Shown here piece by piece: positions 8,944 to 32,690 of a stretch of DNA of 37,116 nucleotides. The DNA is taken from positions 64,001 through 101,116 of the IMG/VR virus record IMGVR_UViG_3300045973_000434; one strand, 5' to 3'. Position numbers and translations under genes: made by a program. This DNA comes from a virus. How positions within the stretch are numbered: the first letter of the stretch is position 1; the number at the start of each line of letters is the position of its first letter. The notes beneath the pieces were generated by a model, which did no database searches, was not told the origin of the DNA, and was given only the letters and a program-made list of their open reading frames with translations.

Positions 8944-9685
8944 CAGTCCTTCTAGACTTTTCAATATCTTTTTGTTTAGCTTCAACTAGAGCTTTCTTAT
9001 CAACCTTTAACCAGTTGTAAATAGAACGTTTAAACCAACCTAAATCTTCACTAAAGTCTTTAGCAGTTTCAAGTTCATGTATACGTTCTTTAAGATCGAT
9101 TATTTCTTTCTTACGTTCGTCTTCTACAAAAGCTTCAGATTTGTCTTTCTTAAGATCTTTCAACTCTTTCTGTAAGTCTTCAACTTCTTCATTAAGACCA
9201 TCTATTAAGCTGGTCATATGTTTACGAATCTTATCTTTTGCACGAGCAACGTCGTCTTCTTTCTCTTTACGTTCAAGAACTAAGTCTTTTTCAAGAGTAC
9301 GATTCTTAAATTCTAGGTCTTTTGTTTTTGTTTCAAGATCAGATATTTCAATACCTAATCTCTTTGCTTCGTCCTTACGGATATCACCGATTACAGTTTC
9401 AAAATTACGATAACCAATTATTTCTTCTTTACCAGGTACTGAATCATAAGTTAGATATCCATTTCTGTCATATCTAGGAACAGATTGTGCCTCTTTGTTT
9501 TTTACTACGATTACTTTTTGGTTTTCTTTAACTTCTTCAATTTTAGATTGAAGTGTTTTTATTTGTTCCTGTAATGCACCAATTGTTTGGTCTTTGTCAG
9601 TAACACTTTTCTCAAGGGCAATTATTTCTTTTACTGAAACTTCTGCCATCCCTGCTAATACTGTTGTTGCGCCTTCTACCTTCAT
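8855..9685 (-). CDS. Coiled-coil protein of unknown function
   Basis: This 276-residue protein is dominated by heptad-like coiled coils: about residues 20-65, and about 100-205, rich in Glu/Lys with regular Leu/Ile. A short globular insert lies between them (PRYDRNGYLTYDSVPGKEEIIGY). A Trp-containing segment (LGWFKRSIYNWLKV, about 215-230) resembles an amphipathic membrane-surface helix. The last 20 residues overlap the out-of-frame 42-residue membrane ORF (8815-8943), and a +1 shift would give this protein a C-terminal membrane anchor. The ATG at 9685 lies 4 nt after the stop of the upstream gene, so the two are cotranscribed. I do not recognise the family; a structural or spanin-like role is only a possibility. 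Confidence 0.75.
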   Translation of the reverse strand: MKVEGATTVLAGMAEVSVKEIIALEKSVTDKDQTIGALQEQIKTLQSKIEEVKENQKVIVVKNKEAQSVPRYDRNGYLTYDSVPGKEEIIGYRNFETVIGDIRKDEAKRLGIEISDLETKTKDLEFKNRTLEKDLVLERKEKEDDVARAKDKIRKHMTSLIDGLNEEVEDLQKELKDLKKDKSEAFVEDERKKEIIDLKERIHELETAKDFSEDLGWFKRSIYNWLKVDKKALVEAKQKDIEKSRRTDEISNNYPKNKNHWRPDWMDSWNLNPFWC

Positions 9686-12187: not shown

Positions 12188-13163
12188 CTAACATTCTTTT
12201 TATGTGATTATCTGCAACTTCTATTCCTAGTTCTTTTACAACATCACTTATATCTTTTACTTTATATAGTATATACATATCTAAAGGTAAGTAGATAAAA
12301 GGAATATCGTATTTTTCTGATAATTTCTTAGCAGCTTCTTTACCAGGAGTATCATTGTCAAATAATATAACGATCCTTTTAAATCGTTCTTTTATATTGT
12401 CTACTATTTTCTTTGGTATAGCGGAATTTTCACTCTGTGGAGCAATTGCATTATATCCTAGTTTATACAATACCATTACATCCTTTAACGATTTAGTTAT
12501 AATAATTGTTTCATCGTTACAAGGAAGTTGTTCCCAACCTTGTATATCATATGGTCCACAATTGTTTCTCCATTTATCTTCCCTATTTGTTGCACAAGGG
12601 CGATATATTTTGAACTTATTGAAGACCTTATATGCATACATTGGACATTCCTTTGTATATTTATAAGGTTGTTGTATATCATTAACCCAGAATGAATCTA
12701 TGGGAGAGACATTAAAATACTTTAAAGTATCTTTGTCAATCCCATATTTAGACCAGTAATCTTCATCGGTTTTAGTAAAATATTTTCTTCTAACTCCAAT
12801 GACTTTTGCTGGTATTTTCAACTCTGGCTCAACTTTAGGTCTGCGTTGCTTTATTTTATTAGTTGCTATTAAGTCTTTCCAAATCTTATTTAAAGATTCG
12901 TGGTACTTAATATCAAATAATATCTGTACAAATTTCACTACATTACCTGTTTCACCTGTTGCAAAATCTTTATACATAATTTGATTTTGTTTAGATCTGA
13001 ATAGACTCCATGATGGATTCTGATCCTTTCTAAAAGGAGATGATATAGGTTTGTTAATGGTCACAGTTTGACCTAAATAATGCGAATAGATATGATATTC
13101 ATCTACTAATTGTAGTATCTTATCTAATGTTACATTATCTGTTACTGTTAAAGTATTGTACAT
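12162..13163 (-). CDS. DnaG-like DNA primase with divergent Toprim
   Basis: This is a 333-residue primase-type protein. The N-terminal part aligns in layout with a CHC2 zinc-ribbon domain (SPFRKDQNPSWSL, then YKDFATGETGNVVKFV), but the zinc-binding Cys/His residues are gone. The Toprim half has the acidic pair IVILFDNDTPGKEA (D269, D271) and an ITKSLKDVMVL motif in place of the usual EGxxD. The Asp is kept (D228), while the catalytic Glu position is Lys/Ser. Its role would be priming at the phage fork with the DnaB-like helicase. It may be a primase of a divergent phage family or a regulatory paralogue. It starts just after the structured terminator at 13173-13230. Confidence 0.78.
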   Translation of the reverse strand: MYNTLTVTDNVTLDKILQLVDEYHIYSHYLGQTVTINKPISSPFRKDQNPSWSLFRSKQNQIMYKDFATGETGNVVKFVQILFDIKYHESLNKIWKDLIATNKIKQRRPKVEPELKIPAKVIGVRRKYFTKTDEDYWSKYGIDKDTLKYFNVSPIDSFWVNDIQQPYKYTKECPMYAYKVFNKFKIYRPCATNREDKWRNNCGPYDIQGWEQLPCNDETIIITKSLKDVMVLYKLGYNAIAPQSENSAIPKKIVDNIKERFKRIVILFDNDTPGKEAAKKLSEKYDIPFIYLPLDMYILYKVKDISDVVKELGIEVADNHIKRMLDEVKESYK

Positions 13164-21439: not shown

Positions 21440-22292
21440 ACATTGTTTTGATTTCATTAATAAAACGCTTACTGTCTTCTTCGTCTAAACATTCTCCATT
21501 CTGTATATAAAGTTCACCTGGTTTAGAAGTATATCCTTTAAAAGCAGAACGACCAATACCTTCATATGTATACATATTTCCAGTATATAGGAGAAAATGC
21601 CAATGTCTGAAAGCCCACGGTGATAATAAAGTTAACAACAAACCAATGTTTAATGTTTCATCCCATTTCTTAATAGGTAATTCACTATAACATTGTTTTA
21701 CATGTTTACCATTATATTGACCAATATCATCTATATCTGTTATTGCATATACTTCAACTCTATAGCCTGTACTTTCTAAGTAATCAACTATAGATACTGC
21801 AGTATATGTTTTATTTAACATAGCTGTTTGATCTATATTACAGTTTTCATTTATGCTTATATATAACTTTACAAACTTACCATTTAAAAATCCATGTTTT
21901 CTTATACGTTTGTTCATAAAAGGCATTTCATCATACAAACGTTCCATAGACATTTCTTCACCATCAATATCATCCCATTTATTCTTGAAACAAGAAGCTC
22001 CATCTAATAATAGATCTTCTTTTAATTGTTCAAGTTTTGCAATACCTGGTTGATATGAATATTTATACTTTTCAAGTTCTTCGTGACGTAAACCTACAAA
22101 AGAACTATTAGTATAACTAAGATGTTCAATGTATTCACTTTGATTCCATGCATTTTTATCAGGGTCATGACATGCTGCATAAAAATCATCAATACTATCA
22201 AATTTTAGTTCAATACGTATTGCATCTTTTTCTTCGTAGCGAGGACGACACCACATCATCATGTCCCAAAAACCACCACCAAAATCTTCCAT
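21408..22292 (-). CDS. CobT/vWA-like partner of MoxR-type ATPase
   Basis: This 294-residue protein matches the phage vWA-like family that accompanies MoxR/CobS ATPases: an N-terminal adaptor with SFVGLRHEELEKYKYS, then a Rossmann-like core beginning VKLYISINENCNID and continuing SIVDYLESTGYRVEVYAITDID, a strand-helix-strand typical of a vWA fold. The MIDAS motif DxSxS is not evident, so it probably does not bind metal in the classical way. Its start codon overlaps the MoxR stop by one base, and this strict pairing is the strongest evidence. The pair is homologous in layout to cobaltochelatase CobS/CobT but also to general MoxR-vWA remodelling chaperones. Confidence 0.68.
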   Translation of the reverse strand: MEDFGGGFWDMMMWCRPRYEEKDAIRIELKFDSIDDFYAACHDPDKNAWNQSEYIEHLSYTNSSFVGLRHEELEKYKYSYQPGIAKLEQLKEDLLLDGASCFKNKWDDIDGEEMSMERLYDEMPFMNKRIRKHGFLNGKFVKLYISINENCNIDQTAMLNKTYTAVSIVDYLESTGYRVEVYAITDIDDIGQYNGKHVKQCYSELPIKKWDETLNIGLLLTLLSPWAFRHWHFLLYTGNMYTYEGIGRSAFKGYTSKPGELYIQNGECLDEEDSKRFINEIKTMYDETVEENVY

Positions 22293-23440
22293 TATACTAC
22301 TAGCTCCTTTTTAAATCCGTTTTCAATTTTGTTTTGTCGTAATGCATCAAGTTCAGCTTTAGTCCAGTTTGAGACTAATCTAAACTTCCAATTGTTAACC
22401 TTATGTTCTTTTAATTTACAACCTTCAATTAACATTCGTGTAGATGCAATCCTTCTAAACATATTAGTTTTAATAACAGTACGAACTTGTTGAATAAACT
22501 CAAATACTTCAGGATCATATTGCTTTTCATAAGCAAACGAATAATCCATTTCAAGGATTCCTCCTACAAAACGGTCTATTGTTGAAGCATCTAACTGATT
22601 ATTTGCTACATACTGTCGATTAGCACCTTGTCCAAATGTATTAGAAGTTGCTACAATTATACAATCTGGATGCCTTTCAACTCTACCATTTGTTGTCATA
22701 ATGAAACCATTAGCCAACGCTGAGTTACTGATCTGTGCTACTGCGGGATCAAGAGCTGTAAATTCATCGAGAAGGATTATAGATGGCATTGCGTAATATT
22801 CTGCAAATGCTGTGTTTTCTCGTGCGGGATATTTATATCCAATAAATTCTGAAGCACTGGTACCTAAACCACATGATATAGTATGTATACCAACTTCTAA
22901 GGCTGTTGCTACATTCTTAGTAATAGTTGTTTTACCACAACCTGCTGGTCCTACTAACCATATGTTTTTAATACCTGCTTTTATAAGTTTTAATAACTCT
23001 TCTTCATAGTTATCAGCAACAAAAGCTTCCAATTGAGCTTCAGATTCTTTTCTTTTCTTTATTTCTTCTGCTTTTTCAAGAGCGTTCTGACGTTTTTGTT
23101 GCATACGTTTTTGAAACTCTTCTTTTGTTTCTTCGGGTGTAAAAGGTACTTCTTGATCAGGTCTATCTTCCCTTCTCATTGGCACAGCTTCTTTTTTATC
23201 GTCTTCTTTTTGACTACCTTTTGGTGCTTTTCCTTTAATCCCTACATTTTGAATATTTTGTACATCATCATAACTTATGTTAAGTATAACTCCGTCTTTT
23301 GTTTTTATAGACATTCTTCTAGCACCAGGGTTATTAACCATGATTTTAAAAGTACCTTCAAATGGTTTACCACCTGTTGTTTGTACTCTACCTTTAAAAG
23401 AATCCTCATAATGTAGATCTTTTACTACTGTTAGTTCCAT
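22292..23440 (-). CDS. MoxR/CobS-type AAA+ ATPase
   Basis: In this 382-residue protein the AAA+ core spans about 145-350. Walker A is GPAGCGKT (164-171), Walker B is IILLDEF (221-227), sensor 1 is ATSNTFG (N267), and the arginine finger is in STIDRFVGG (R290). The GLGTSASEFIGYKYP loop is typical of the CobS/MoxR (AAA_5) clade. The N-terminal ~70 residues form a small beta-rich domain (KIMVNNPGARRMSIKTKDG), followed by a charged helical linker to about 140. With its vWA partner it would remodel a protein complex or insert a metal cofactor. It lies directly downstream of the B12-dependent reductase gene. Confidence 0.87.
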   Translation of the reverse strand: MELTVVKDLHYEDSFKGRVQTTGGKPFEGTFKIMVNNPGARRMSIKTKDGVILNISYDDVQNIQNVGIKGKAPKGSQKEDDKKEAVPMRREDRPDQEVPFTPEETKEEFQKRMQQKRQNALEKAEEIKKRKESEAQLEAFVADNYEEELLKLIKAGIKNIWLVGPAGCGKTTITKNVATALEVGIHTISCGLGTSASEFIGYKYPARENTAFAEYYAMPSIILLDEFTALDPAVAQISNSALANGFIMTTNGRVERHPDCIIVATSNTFGQGANRQYVANNQLDASTIDRFVGGILEMDYSFAYEKQYDPEVFEFIQQVRTVIKTNMFRRIASTRMLIEGCKLKEHKVNNWKFRLVSNWTKAELDALRQNKIENGFKKELVV

Positions 23441-26814: not shown

Positions 26815-26839
26815 GATTATTTTTGATTACTGGTTTTGA

Positions 26840-26909
26840 TGTCTAAGAGGGAATCGAACCCCCGTCCTCTACTTCATAAAGTAGCACTCCGCCCCTGAGC
26901 TATTAGACA
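26840..26909 (-). tRNA. tRNA or tRNA-like gene, anticodon arm irregular
   Basis: On the - strand a perfect 7-bp acceptor TGTCTAA/TTAGACA is followed by TA, a D stem GCTC/GAGT, a 5-nt variable loop and a T arm GGGGG-TTCGATT-CCCTC, all at canonical places. The anticodon arm is 16 nt instead of 17 and self-complementary (CTACT...AGTAG). It folds as 5 bp with a 6-nt loop or 4 bp with an 8-nt loop TTTATGAA, so the anticodon cannot be assigned with confidence (TAT and ATG are readings). CCA is not encoded. It may be a functional unusual tRNA or a decaying one. Confidence 0.65.
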
Positions 26910-29108: not shown

Positions 29109-29183
29109 AATGCATTTGTTTTGGTGATTGAAAGTGTTGAAGCATAGACCCGATTTTGAGTGCATAATTTCGTTATGAAATCG

Positions 29184-31100
29184 TAAACCTATTATTTAAA
29201 CTTGGGTAAATTTGATAATACTCGTAATGCTTTTAGGCAACTTAAGCCTTGCACAGCTTAAGCGTTTACCCCACATGCAACGATTAAGTACACACTGGTA
29301 ATAAACACAGGGGAATCGAGTCTTGATAGCTTCATCTTTTTAGGTTAAATAAGTCTAACCTGGTGTACCGAAATACACGCCAAATAACTTCATTTAATTT
29401 TTGTTGCAACTCTTATATCCGGTTGCAGTCTAGGTATTGTACCTATTTGTAGTGATCAGTTGATAAATTTAAAGTATTGTTTATACTTCTCATAGTCGTG
29501 CTATTGTACCAGATTTCACCCTGGCGTTTACTCCGTCCTCTCATATCTGCTATGTTTGACATTCTCGATAACTTAGAGAAAGGCGGGCTTCGAGGCTAAT
29601 GGAGCGCTTTACAGCGTCTTTTCAACCTTCACATCTTCATATGATTCATATACTTCTTACTATGGCTTAGAATTAAGCGCAAGGCCATCTACGCTCGTTT
29701 ATACCCACCCTGACACCATTTGCATGGTTAGCCCATCAAATGGACTTTATACAGTGTGTTATAAAATCTGTCATGTTAGTTTCTAAGACTTTACGGTCTA
29801 TGTGTTTGTTGTTTGCGGGTTTGACTCGTTGTTGCTCGTTCTCAACTCAATACGTCTACAGACGTTTTCCTCAAAGGCTGTCCAATACTACTCCTCATAT
29901 CGTAAACTCGTTACGTAGTGATTTTGTATGCCACTTTCCGTGTTAATAACTAAACGCTAATACTAAATCGATTATCTGAAATAATATCAATGAGAGTCAG
30001 GGGCAACCTGCTTATCCATGAATTGCTTTTCTAAACGTTTCCGTTATACAATGGGATTTAAACCCATGAAGCCATATACCTTTTTATTACAACCAAGGTC
30101 CCCTACGTGTGAGTAACCATGCCTCGATGCTTTATTTAGTTTTTTAGGCCCCCTATTTACGATAGGGTCTCTTTTGTATCTGTTAGAATATAGATGCCAG
30201 TGCAATACCCTAACCCTTAGAACTATGATATGTTTGTTAGTTTTTAGAAAACTGGCAAAAGCAACAACTTTAATGAGTTTACTACACTTCGTGGTTATTC
30301 CTGTTATTGATTAGTATGCACGGTTGTTTGTTTCCAGTTGTTTCCTGGGACTCGCACGCTATTTCAATATATACCCTAGCCTAGTATTACTAGCTATTTT
30401 ACGTCAATTAACGTGGTCAGGGTTTAGATCCCACTTTTACCGGTGTCTTCCGTAGACACTCCGTAGCCTGATTCGTTGGGTTCTCGTGAATCACACGCCA
30501 CTCCGTTTCACTCTGTTTGTATTATATACCAATTACGGTATTAGGAGAGAGTTTAGGCAATTTGTTGCTCCGTTATCTCACATCTAAAATGTGAACCTCC
30601 GCGATCGTTACCATGGTGTTACGCACGATGCTTAATCGACTTGCCTCCCACTTAACGTGTATCCTAGTACCTAAACCTTTTCATCGATGGCCTTAACAGA
30701 CTTACTTGTTTATTATCCAGGGAATTCCACCCTTTACGCCACTCATTTTGTTTGTAGTAGAACGACTATTGCCTAAATTCATCATTGTCGGCACAGTGTA
30801 CCAAGTTTGCTAATCCAAGCACGTTCTCCATGCATGTTTCGAATCGTGTCGGCATTTAGCATCTGACTCCAGCCTACTGTCTGCTGACATTCTAACTCGA
30901 AGTGAGTGCATCCACAGTCCTATCGGGCGCAATAAACTTCGTTAGACTGCTATGTCTAGAGAGAATGAATAACTTTGCGATGCGATATCGCGGTCACTAT
31001 ATTACTGAGGATCGTCTACCAGTTCCTAAAAGCAATCATTCTATGCTTAAAGTTCCTTAAAGAGTTTGACCTTACGGGGTCTAATTGCAATTCCCAGCAA
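29184..31100 (-). ncRNA. Giant structured noncoding RNA region (new class or GOLLD/ROOL-like)
   Basis: About 1.9 kb without a convincing ORF (longest frames about 60-70 codons, on the opposite strand). Sampled lines run 45-52% GC against roughly a third in the genes. Many hairpins are visible on the - strand: CTTAAGC/GCTTAAG (29241-29262), AGGTTA/TAACCT (29342-29361), TGCAAC/GTTGCA (29405-29427), AGGTA/TACCT (29432-29444), CGCT-GTAA-AGCG with a GNRA loop (29605-29616), CGAT/ATCG (30626-30638), and a perfect 10-bp long-range helix (30768-30777 with 30552-30561). Strand is inferred from flanking genes and the GNRA loop. Phages are known to carry giant ornate RNAs (GOLLD, ROOL) near tRNAs; I cannot confirm membership. 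Exact ends are uncertain and it may hold more than one RNA. Confidence 0.6.
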
Positions 31101-31109
31101 TGTACAAAA

Positions 31110-32690
31110 TCAACTATAATAATAGCGACAAATTTTTCCATCATGTGTTTTCAAAAATGATTCTGTCATTAAAATAACAGTATCAATCTGAATTGGCTGA
31201 TCAAGAGCTTGATTAATCTTCTTACGATAGATTTCCATTAATGATTCGGTGTGAAGGATTCCTAATCCTTTAGCTTCTACGAAATTTATATCTGGATACA
31301 CAAGCAAAATTAGCTTATCCACAGTTCTTTCTTCTTGATCAATAGATCGCCTTAAAAGAATTATAACTTCCTGAATATAGGGAATTGATTTGATTATCCT
31401 TTCTATTTTGTCCAATTGGACAGGAAGTTTGAAGTCGTTGAGTATTATGGCTTTCTTACGGCCATATACAAACAAAACATTTGATTTTGGGTCGGTGACG
31501 CCAATATCTCCTGTTAAATAATTATCTCTGTACCGAACTTCACGTGTGTAACTATCATCACCTACATATCTTTCGAATAAGGTGGTGCCAGAAATTTCTA
31601 ACTCTTCTTCATTAGTAGTATTGAGAAAAATGTTTTGTAGGGCGGTGCCAACTGCAAAAGGCATTCTCTTTACTTTTGTTGAAAAATCGTTTATCGCAAC
31701 TAACTGATTTGTCTCCTGAGAACCATAAGTAGTATAAATTGGAAACTTACCTATCAAAGTTGATAGTATCTCCTCATGAATGGTACTGTTATATACCACA
31801 AGAGCTTCTAACTTCTTACCATAATAACTCTTCATCTTTAGCAGTGCTATTTTCTTAAAGAGCCATTTCATCCAGGTTATCGAAAACAAAAATGAATAAA
31901 CTCGTTTACTATACAAATAGTTAACTTCGTTTCTCCATACACTTTCAATAGAGTTTGTGTCCTCTATAACGACTTCTGCTTGATCTTTAGAACCAACCAG
32001 AATACAACCTTTAACAAATGGTAGTAACACAGTTAAAAAATGAGATTCAGCAAACTCAACATTTGAGTATACTTTATTCATTTCTTTAAACGGTACTGCT
32101 ACTATTGCTTTAGTTAAGAAAGCACCAATAGAACTGTGATGTGATTCAACCCATTTGGGTTCACCATATTCAGTTCCAGAGGTTGCAGTAATTACTGCCC
32201 CATCATCATCTTCATCAAACGTATCTAATATTTTGATGTCTACATTCATGTTTTTCTCTGAACTTACTAAAATTTCAGCAAGAGTTTCATAATTGGTACT
32301 GTTATTACGTTCAAAAATAACACTTAAATCTTCTGTAGAAATTAGTGTTTGAACAAACAACGCTTTACCTAAGTCATCTGATACTAAATCAGGATCAATA
32401 AAGATATGATTTGTGTTGGTTAAGAGTAGGATATGAACAGTTTCTAATTTGTTCATTTTAGGGTGTATAACTAATAAGTTTACACCTTTTAATAAACATG
32501 CAATATAGATGGCGATCCAATTATAGGAGTTTCTACCATATAATGCAATAGTACTATTACTATCCAATTCAAATACATCAAGCACATTATATATTGTAAG
32601 AATCCGTTTAAATAACGTTTTCATAGTAGTGTGCTCAAATACAGGGAGATACCAACAATCTCTTACTGCTTGTAAAATCCGCTTTTTCAT
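31110..32690 (-). CDS. Adenylate-forming (ANL superfamily) enzyme, acyl-CoA synthetase-like
   Basis: This 526-residue protein carries the adenylation motifs in order: an N-terminal NSTIALYGRNSYNWIAIY segment, A3 TATSGTEYGEPKWV (168-181), A5 TTYGSQETN (320-328), A7 YLTGDIGVTD (391-400), A8 YGRKKAIIL (409-417) and a C-terminal A10 THDGKICR with the catalytic Lys (K519). It would activate a carboxylate with ATP to an acyl-AMP and pass it to CoA or another acceptor. The layout is closest to long-chain acyl-CoA synthetases, but the substrate pocket is divergent. No carrier protein is fused or visible next door. Its start overlaps the 126-residue gene by ATGA, so it is coupled to it. Such enzymes are rare in phages, so its substrate is of interest. 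Confidence 0.85.
   Translation of the reverse strand: MKKRILQAVRDCWYLPVFEHTTMKTLFKRILTIYNVLDVFELDSNSTIALYGRNSYNWIAIYIACLLKGVNLLVIHPKMNKLETVHILLLTNTNHIFIDPDLVSDDLGKALFVQTLISTEDLSVIFERNNSTNYETLAEILVSSEKNMNVDIKILDTFDEDDDGAVITATSGTEYGEPKWVESHHSSIGAFLTKAIVAVPFKEMNKVYSNVEFAESHFLTVLLPFVKGCILVGSKDQAEVVIEDTNSIESVWRNEVNYLYSKRVYSFLFSITWMKWLFKKIALLKMKSYYGKKLEALVVYNSTIHEEILSTLIGKFPIYTTYGSQETNQLVAINDFSTKVKRMPFAVGTALQNIFLNTTNEEELEISGTTLFERYVGDDSYTREVRYRDNYLTGDIGVTDPKSNVLFVYGRKKAIILNDFKLPVQLDKIERIIKSIPYIQEVIILLRRSIDQEERTVDKLILLVYPDINFVEAKGLGILHTESLMEIYRKKINQALDQPIQIDTVILMTESFLKTHDGKICRYYYS

Follow-up and report, generated by a model that had tools for sequence, protein, structure and literature searches.

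A 1,944-nt gene-free stretch in a crAss-like phage genome is conserved in two close relatives, carries compensatory changes on the minus strand and very probably represents a structured noncoding RNA. An initial annotation, made from the sequence of the window (the whole 37,116-nt piece of DNA analyzed here), had read it as a giant phage noncoding RNA. That reading is backed by the conservation of the stretch, the lack of a coding signal, the compensatory changes, the pseudoknots of its gut counterparts and the absence of any Rfam match.

Genomic setting of the gene-free stretch

The window comes from a 101-kb IMG/VR record (IMGVR_UViG_3300045973_000434). By its sequence, the source virus is a crAss-like phage, and the AAA ATPase at 22292–23440 shares 56–63% identity with AAA ATPases of Crassvirales (Suoliviridae). 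The replication genes (DNA polymerase, primase, exonuclease and AAA) form one leftward block downstream of the gene-free stretch, and this block abuts large genes of the opposite orientation, a layout also seen in cr115_1. The stretch and its flanking genes are as follows.

31110..32690, minus strand: AMP-binding (adenylate-forming) enzyme, upstream flank; PF00501, E 7e-14; precedes the RNA in L002 and L049 as well
29166..31109, minus strand: predicted large structured noncoding RNA gene, maximal extent between the flanking genes; ORF-free, conserved in L002 and L049
28644..29165, minus strand: 173-aa gene with no assigned function, downstream flank; kept in L002 and L049

The limits first given, 29184–31100, do enclose a gene-free region and are slightly narrow, the true extent being 29166–31109. 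As first described, there is no convincing ORF, with nothing longer than 68 aa from the end of one flanking gene at 31110 to the start of the other at 29165; the genome has few gaps elsewhere, the stretch being ~8 times as long as the next-largest gap between major genes (~240 nt, which holds a tRNA-like gene); and the stretch is richer in GC than its surroundings (0.396 vs 0.331 for the window). The tRNA-like gene and the adenylate-forming enzyme also lie in the same leftward block, as had been pointed out, the former at 26838–26909 and the latter, the PF00501 gene, at 31110–32690. The tRNA-like gene (minus strand; 49.8 bits with the Rfam tRNA model; anticodon unreadable by ARAGORN) is located ~2.3 kb downstream of the stretch. 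The AMP-binding enzyme adjoins the RNA stretch in all three close relatives, namely the window, L002 and L049, and its matches in phage records show only 21–24% identity, in three human faecal phage contigs. No DNA similarity to the stretch was found in phage and plasmid records.

Conservation and compensatory changes in close relatives

Folding of the single sequence stays at chance level. The many perfect hairpins described initially were not recovered, since the stretch has one perfect hairpin of at least 7 bp against 1.0 expected, and its folding energy is near chance (z = −1.5 vs dinucleotide shuffles), less extreme than that of coding stretches of the same window (z −4.6 to −9.0). Therefore, the noncoding nature and the RNA structure rest on the relatives. 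The 10-bp long-range helix claimed earlier was not borne out in that form: the exact 10-bp complementary pairs are two in number (gap positions 76/1873 and 333/549), against about two that we estimate for chance alone, and L049 does not retain the 76/1873 pair. A different 10-bp helix, joining positions 842–851 and 1273–1282, does covary.

The AMP-binding protein and a downstream protein were used as queries to find relatives of the window, which identified L002 and L049; the search for further relatives via neighboring proteins found only these two. Both keep the AMP-binding gene, the gene-free stretch (L002 11549–13233, 1,685 nt; L049 4646–6318, 1,673 nt) and the downstream genes. The three stretches align with ~70% identity in long blocks, in which the mismatches show no codon periodicity and indel lengths do not fall into multiples of 3. 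A protein-coding signal in the aligned homologues, named beforehand as an outcome that would speak against the RNA, was thus not found.

Consensus folding of the three sequences yielded 127 doubly compensated pairs, compared with 72.7 ± 7.8 after column shuffling; for the AMP-binding gene from these genomes, taken as control, the figures were 67 and 57.5 ± 7.4. We used double compensations as evidence instead of folding energy, because coding controls score on energy too: the consensus-folding energy (z −5 to −20) was dropped as evidence of structure, coding controls also reaching z −4 to −11, and an energy-based strand test shares this weakness. Covariation among homologues, which the initial annotation had proposed as a check, was found by a model-free helix scan (minimum 6 bp and 3 double compensations, with pairing in each of the three sequences), with 4 fully paired covarying helices in this family, 0 in 12 shuffles and 0 in the neighboring coding gene; a letter-permuted control of the scan keeps pairing and is hence uninformative. 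The covarying helices are commoner on the gene strand than on the opposite strand, both in this family (4 vs 1) and summed over four groups (17 vs 8). The elements of the stretch are listed from its 5' end.

30898..30941, minus strand: hairpin arm; 3 double compensations in its outer 6 bp, gap positions 169–174/207–212
30577..30595, minus strand: 8-bp hairpin; gap positions 515–522/526–533, 5 doubly compensated pairs, 0 mismatches in 3 sequences
30259..30268, minus strand: 10-bp long-range helix, 5' strand; gap positions 842–851, 0 in shuffles
30195..30257, minus strand: helix UGCCAG/CUGGCA, 30252–30257 with 30195–30200; 3 double compensations
30051..30067, minus strand: T-arm-like hairpin (tRNA T-loop motif), AUGGG-UUUAAAU-CCCAU; compensatory stem changes in relatives
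29828..29837, minus strand: 10-bp long-range helix, 3' strand; gap positions 1273–1282, partner ~430 nt away
29706..29758, minus strand: outer helix enclosing the invariant hairpin, 29748–29758 with 29706–29715; 4 doubly compensated pairs
29716..29743, minus strand: invariant-stem hairpin CCAUUUGAUGG/CCAUGCAAAUGG

The strands of the 10-bp long-range helix pair as GUUGUUGCUU/GAGCAACAAC, AUUGUUAUUU/GAAUAACAAU and GUUGUUGUUU/GGACAACAAU in the three sequences. Because this covarying helix joins segments ~430 nt apart, one RNA rather than two is favored, at least for the central part. The T-arm-like hairpin is present in the window, L002 and L049, reading GUGAG-UUCGAAU-CUCAC and GUGGG-UUCAAAU-CCCAC in the relatives; over all gaps, 4 such hairpins were found vs 0.15 expected, and the one in L049 matches the T-arm of the tmRNA model at a sub-threshold E of 7e-4.

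Counterparts in Suoliviridae and environmental phages

At the corresponding place, cr115_1 has a 2.2-kb unannotated gap, and the search for counterparts followed the phage sigma factor adjoining it. An ORF-free gap of 1.9–2.5 kb is present ~3 kb past the sigma factor in 12 of 12 Suoliviridae records (11 genera, five subfamilies), if a few small annotated ORFs of spurious appearance are disregarded, and the stretch itself is absent from the annotation of these records. Scanning IMG/VR with the sigma factor gave 23 loci, and all 22 with enough downstream sequence have an ORF-free stretch of 1.6–2.5 kb (standard code), which starts 2.7–3.4 kb after the sigma gene start. The gut gaps are joined by significant, mostly colinear DNA matches, and the gaps as a whole form three linked groups: gut; environmental loci L036–L045; and the window with L002 and L049. 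In Suoliviridae, the ~2-kb RNA sits between a regulatory block (sigma factor, tmRNA, tRNAs and small ribozyme-type RNAs) and the replication block. In crAss001 and crAss002, which belong to other families, no comparable stretch was found, the largest gaps seen being ~0.9 kb.

The 5' end of the gut RNA forms a 190-nt domain of five nested helices and two pseudoknots, as derived from 19 aligned sequences. In pseudoknot 1, the GCGU loop of a GGG/CCC hairpin reaches beyond the next hairpin to pair with ACGC, and the variants GCGU/ACGC, GAGU/ACUC, GGGU/ACCC and GUGU/ACAC occur; in pseudoknot 2, the 5' strand (e.g. GAGUAAU) forms pairs with the loop (AUUACUC) of the hairpin that follows. Double compensation is seen in 34 of the 37 pairs, 91.4% of cells pair, and the covariation score is 0.405 vs 0.138 ± 0.011 when shuffled and 0.05–0.10 when slid. 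A model of this domain (R2) recovers cr10_1, cr125_1 and cr118_1 (E 2e-20, 3e-23 and 5e-10), all three outside its alignment and cr125_1 close to the included cr115_1. The model has no match in the window, the environmental group, crAss001 or crAss002; with filters off, its best score on the window stretch is 8.9 bits (E 0.18), and the whole record has none. G-U cells exceed A-C cells in the helices (22 vs 12) and covarying helices are commoner on the gene strand, which makes the gene strand the most likely one for the RNA.

Small annotated proteins lie inside the RNA stretch at L010 12964–13149, L011 11882–12043, L012 11883–12044, L016 13726–14163 and L020 12379–12861. They look like false gene calls, because the one of cr10_1 overlaps the conserved 5' RNA domain (model match 12918–13104).

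The window agrees with these counterparts in having its ORF-free stretch ahead of the replication block in the same direction of transcription. Comparison of the window, gut and environmental RNAs by profile or model gave no colinear match and no convincing sequence link. The immediate flanking genes of the window show no demonstrable homology to those of the gut phages, an A4-like downstream gene in the window's record matched weakly, and the sigma factor is not seen in that record, which ends just past the upstream gene. By position, the window RNA is a counterpart of the gut RNA, and we infer common descent from their agreement in place, length and type, with sequence homology undetected.

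Two local similarities between groups were also observed. Window positions 29193–29232 (minus strand), at the 3' end of the RNA, match cr6 923–969 (L013 ~13090–13136) with E 6e-4, not colinearly. A hairpin motif, GA..AGG-loop-CCT, occurs at ~470–1070 of the gut gaps (e.g. L008 ~1320–1370), in the first half of the gut RNA, and also in the last third of the environmental RNA (L042 ~9590–9620), out of order and with E 0.009–0.2.

Known RNAs, rival explanations and a possible role

Rfam 15 was scanned at gathering and permissive thresholds and gave no match in the stretch of the window, L002, L049 or the counterparts scanned, apart from the sub-threshold T-arm. This check, which the initial annotation had suggested and which included GOLLD and ROOL, thus spoke for the reading of a giant RNA. 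Identity with GOLLD, ROOL or an intron is ruled out by the Rfam models; no group I or II catalytic core had an Rfam match in the stretch, and the flanking genes are intact. In the flanking regions, the same scans do detect hatchet, RAGATH, permuted tmRNA, tRNA and group I intron RNAs. The region upstream of the sigma factor (L009–L020, L042) is dense in Rfam RNAs, including hatchet, RAGATH-1/7/9/20/22, permuted tmRNA and group I introns.

GOLLD and ROOL are phage RNAs located near tRNAs that form RNA-only cages, the function of the cages being unexplained (PMC12286853). GOLLD is a large, ornate phage noncoding RNA often near tRNAs (PMC12286853), and a similar setting is seen here, with a tRNA-like gene in the window and tRNAs and a tmRNA in the gut counterparts; however, its members, of ~0.8 kb or more, match a known model, whereas the present RNA spans 1.7–2.5 kb, has no Rfam match and keeps to a fixed locus of one phage family. 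ROOL is a phage or prophage RNA with multiple pseudoknots, often near tRNA islands and with no known protein partner (PMC12286853); the solved ROOL measures ~0.66 kb, compared with 1.7–2.5 kb for the present RNA, which has no match to the ROOL model. The T-arm-like hairpin of the window's family recalls tRNA mimics such as YrlA-type Y RNA and tmRNA, but no acceptor stem, D-arm or tag frame was found in the stretch, and the whole tRNA and tmRNA models are unmatched. No large noncoding RNA of Crassvirales is described in the searchable literature, whose coverage leaves out subscription papers and preprints.

Our best explanation, which we advance tentatively, is one large RNA of ~1.7–1.9 kb on the minus strand that is by position the counterpart of the Suoliviridae RNA and may work by a GOLLD/ROOL-like mechanism. 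Two or more adjacent structured RNAs would fit the patchy conservation along the stretch and the self-contained gut 5' domain, but seem somewhat unlikely, as the covarying helix links 842–851 with 1273–1282, every group keeps the overall length and the position as a single block, and no terminator-like site was found on the minus strand. Instead of a free RNA, the stretch could also be a long 5' untranslated leader acting in cis, whose folds control the operon from 28644 on. It directly precedes a same-strand gene block, and the last ~45 nt before the gut downstream gene are well conserved (cr1/cr6 93%, cr130/cr7 91%, cr273/cr7 93%) and resemble a separate leader or promoter. We consider this unlikely, since ~2 kb far exceeds known leaders, the covarying structure sets in at the opposite (5') end, 1.9 kb before the downstream gene, and the long stretch persists while the downstream genes vary between groups.

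The location at one end of the replication gene block would suit a DNA element, such as a replication origin or packaging site with conserved strand folds or inverted repeats; yet the pseudoknots and G-U-containing helices (22 G-U vs 12 A-C cells), the excess of covarying helices on the gene strand and the great length of the stretch make such an element very unlikely. Group I introns do occur nearby in phages of this group, but a degenerate gene or insertion (intron, retroelement) is hardly credible, given that no intron family matches the stretch, no gene is interrupted by it, compensatory changes require active selection, and a stretch of this kind lies at one site in every examined Suoliviridae genome.

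A single large RNA, as preferred here, would be made abundantly during infection, as are GOLLD and ROOL, with early production as a best guess of low confidence. Its transcription would proceed on the gene strand at the border of the regulatory and replication blocks, a place to which published work on other crAss-like phages assigns early and middle transcription by the virion RNA polymerase (PMC10136315), plausibly the enzyme used here as well. The RNA would fold by means of pseudoknots, long-range helices and T-loop contacts into a compact particle, perhaps self-assembling, and this could act as a scaffold or container that helps the phage to control translation or its own tRNAs. Such a self-assembling or scaffold role is a possibility that we favor with reserve, because GOLLD and ROOL are the nearest analogs by size, pseudoknots and tRNA setting.

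We see roughly even chances that a single ~2-kb RNA machine belongs to the core genome of Suoliviridae and of related crAss-like phages from the environment, the gut, environmental and window groups having diverged versions that keep length and place while their sequences are no longer recognizably alike, and that it may act in host takeover as a particle made of RNA only or as a catalyst. The crAss-like phages rank among the most abundant human gut viruses, and to our knowledge ~2 kb exceeds any known structured noncoding RNA from phages. At two to three times the length of GOLLD and ROOL, a conserved structured RNA of this kind would represent a new class of large RNA. Its phylogenetic and genomic context would be clear, there would be many sequences on which to study its structure, and its place in the infection cycle could be tested.

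Additionally, we observed an unannotated tRNA-like RNA in crAss001 (L022 43454–43597, minus strand; record ~96453–96596; 46.6 bits, E 2e-8). It has a full acceptor stem, D-arm and T-arm, and an anticodon arm with a large insert (82 positions). With its place in a 0.9-kb gap immediately behind a Ro60/TROVE-domain gene (PF05731), it is a candidate YrlA-type Y RNA.
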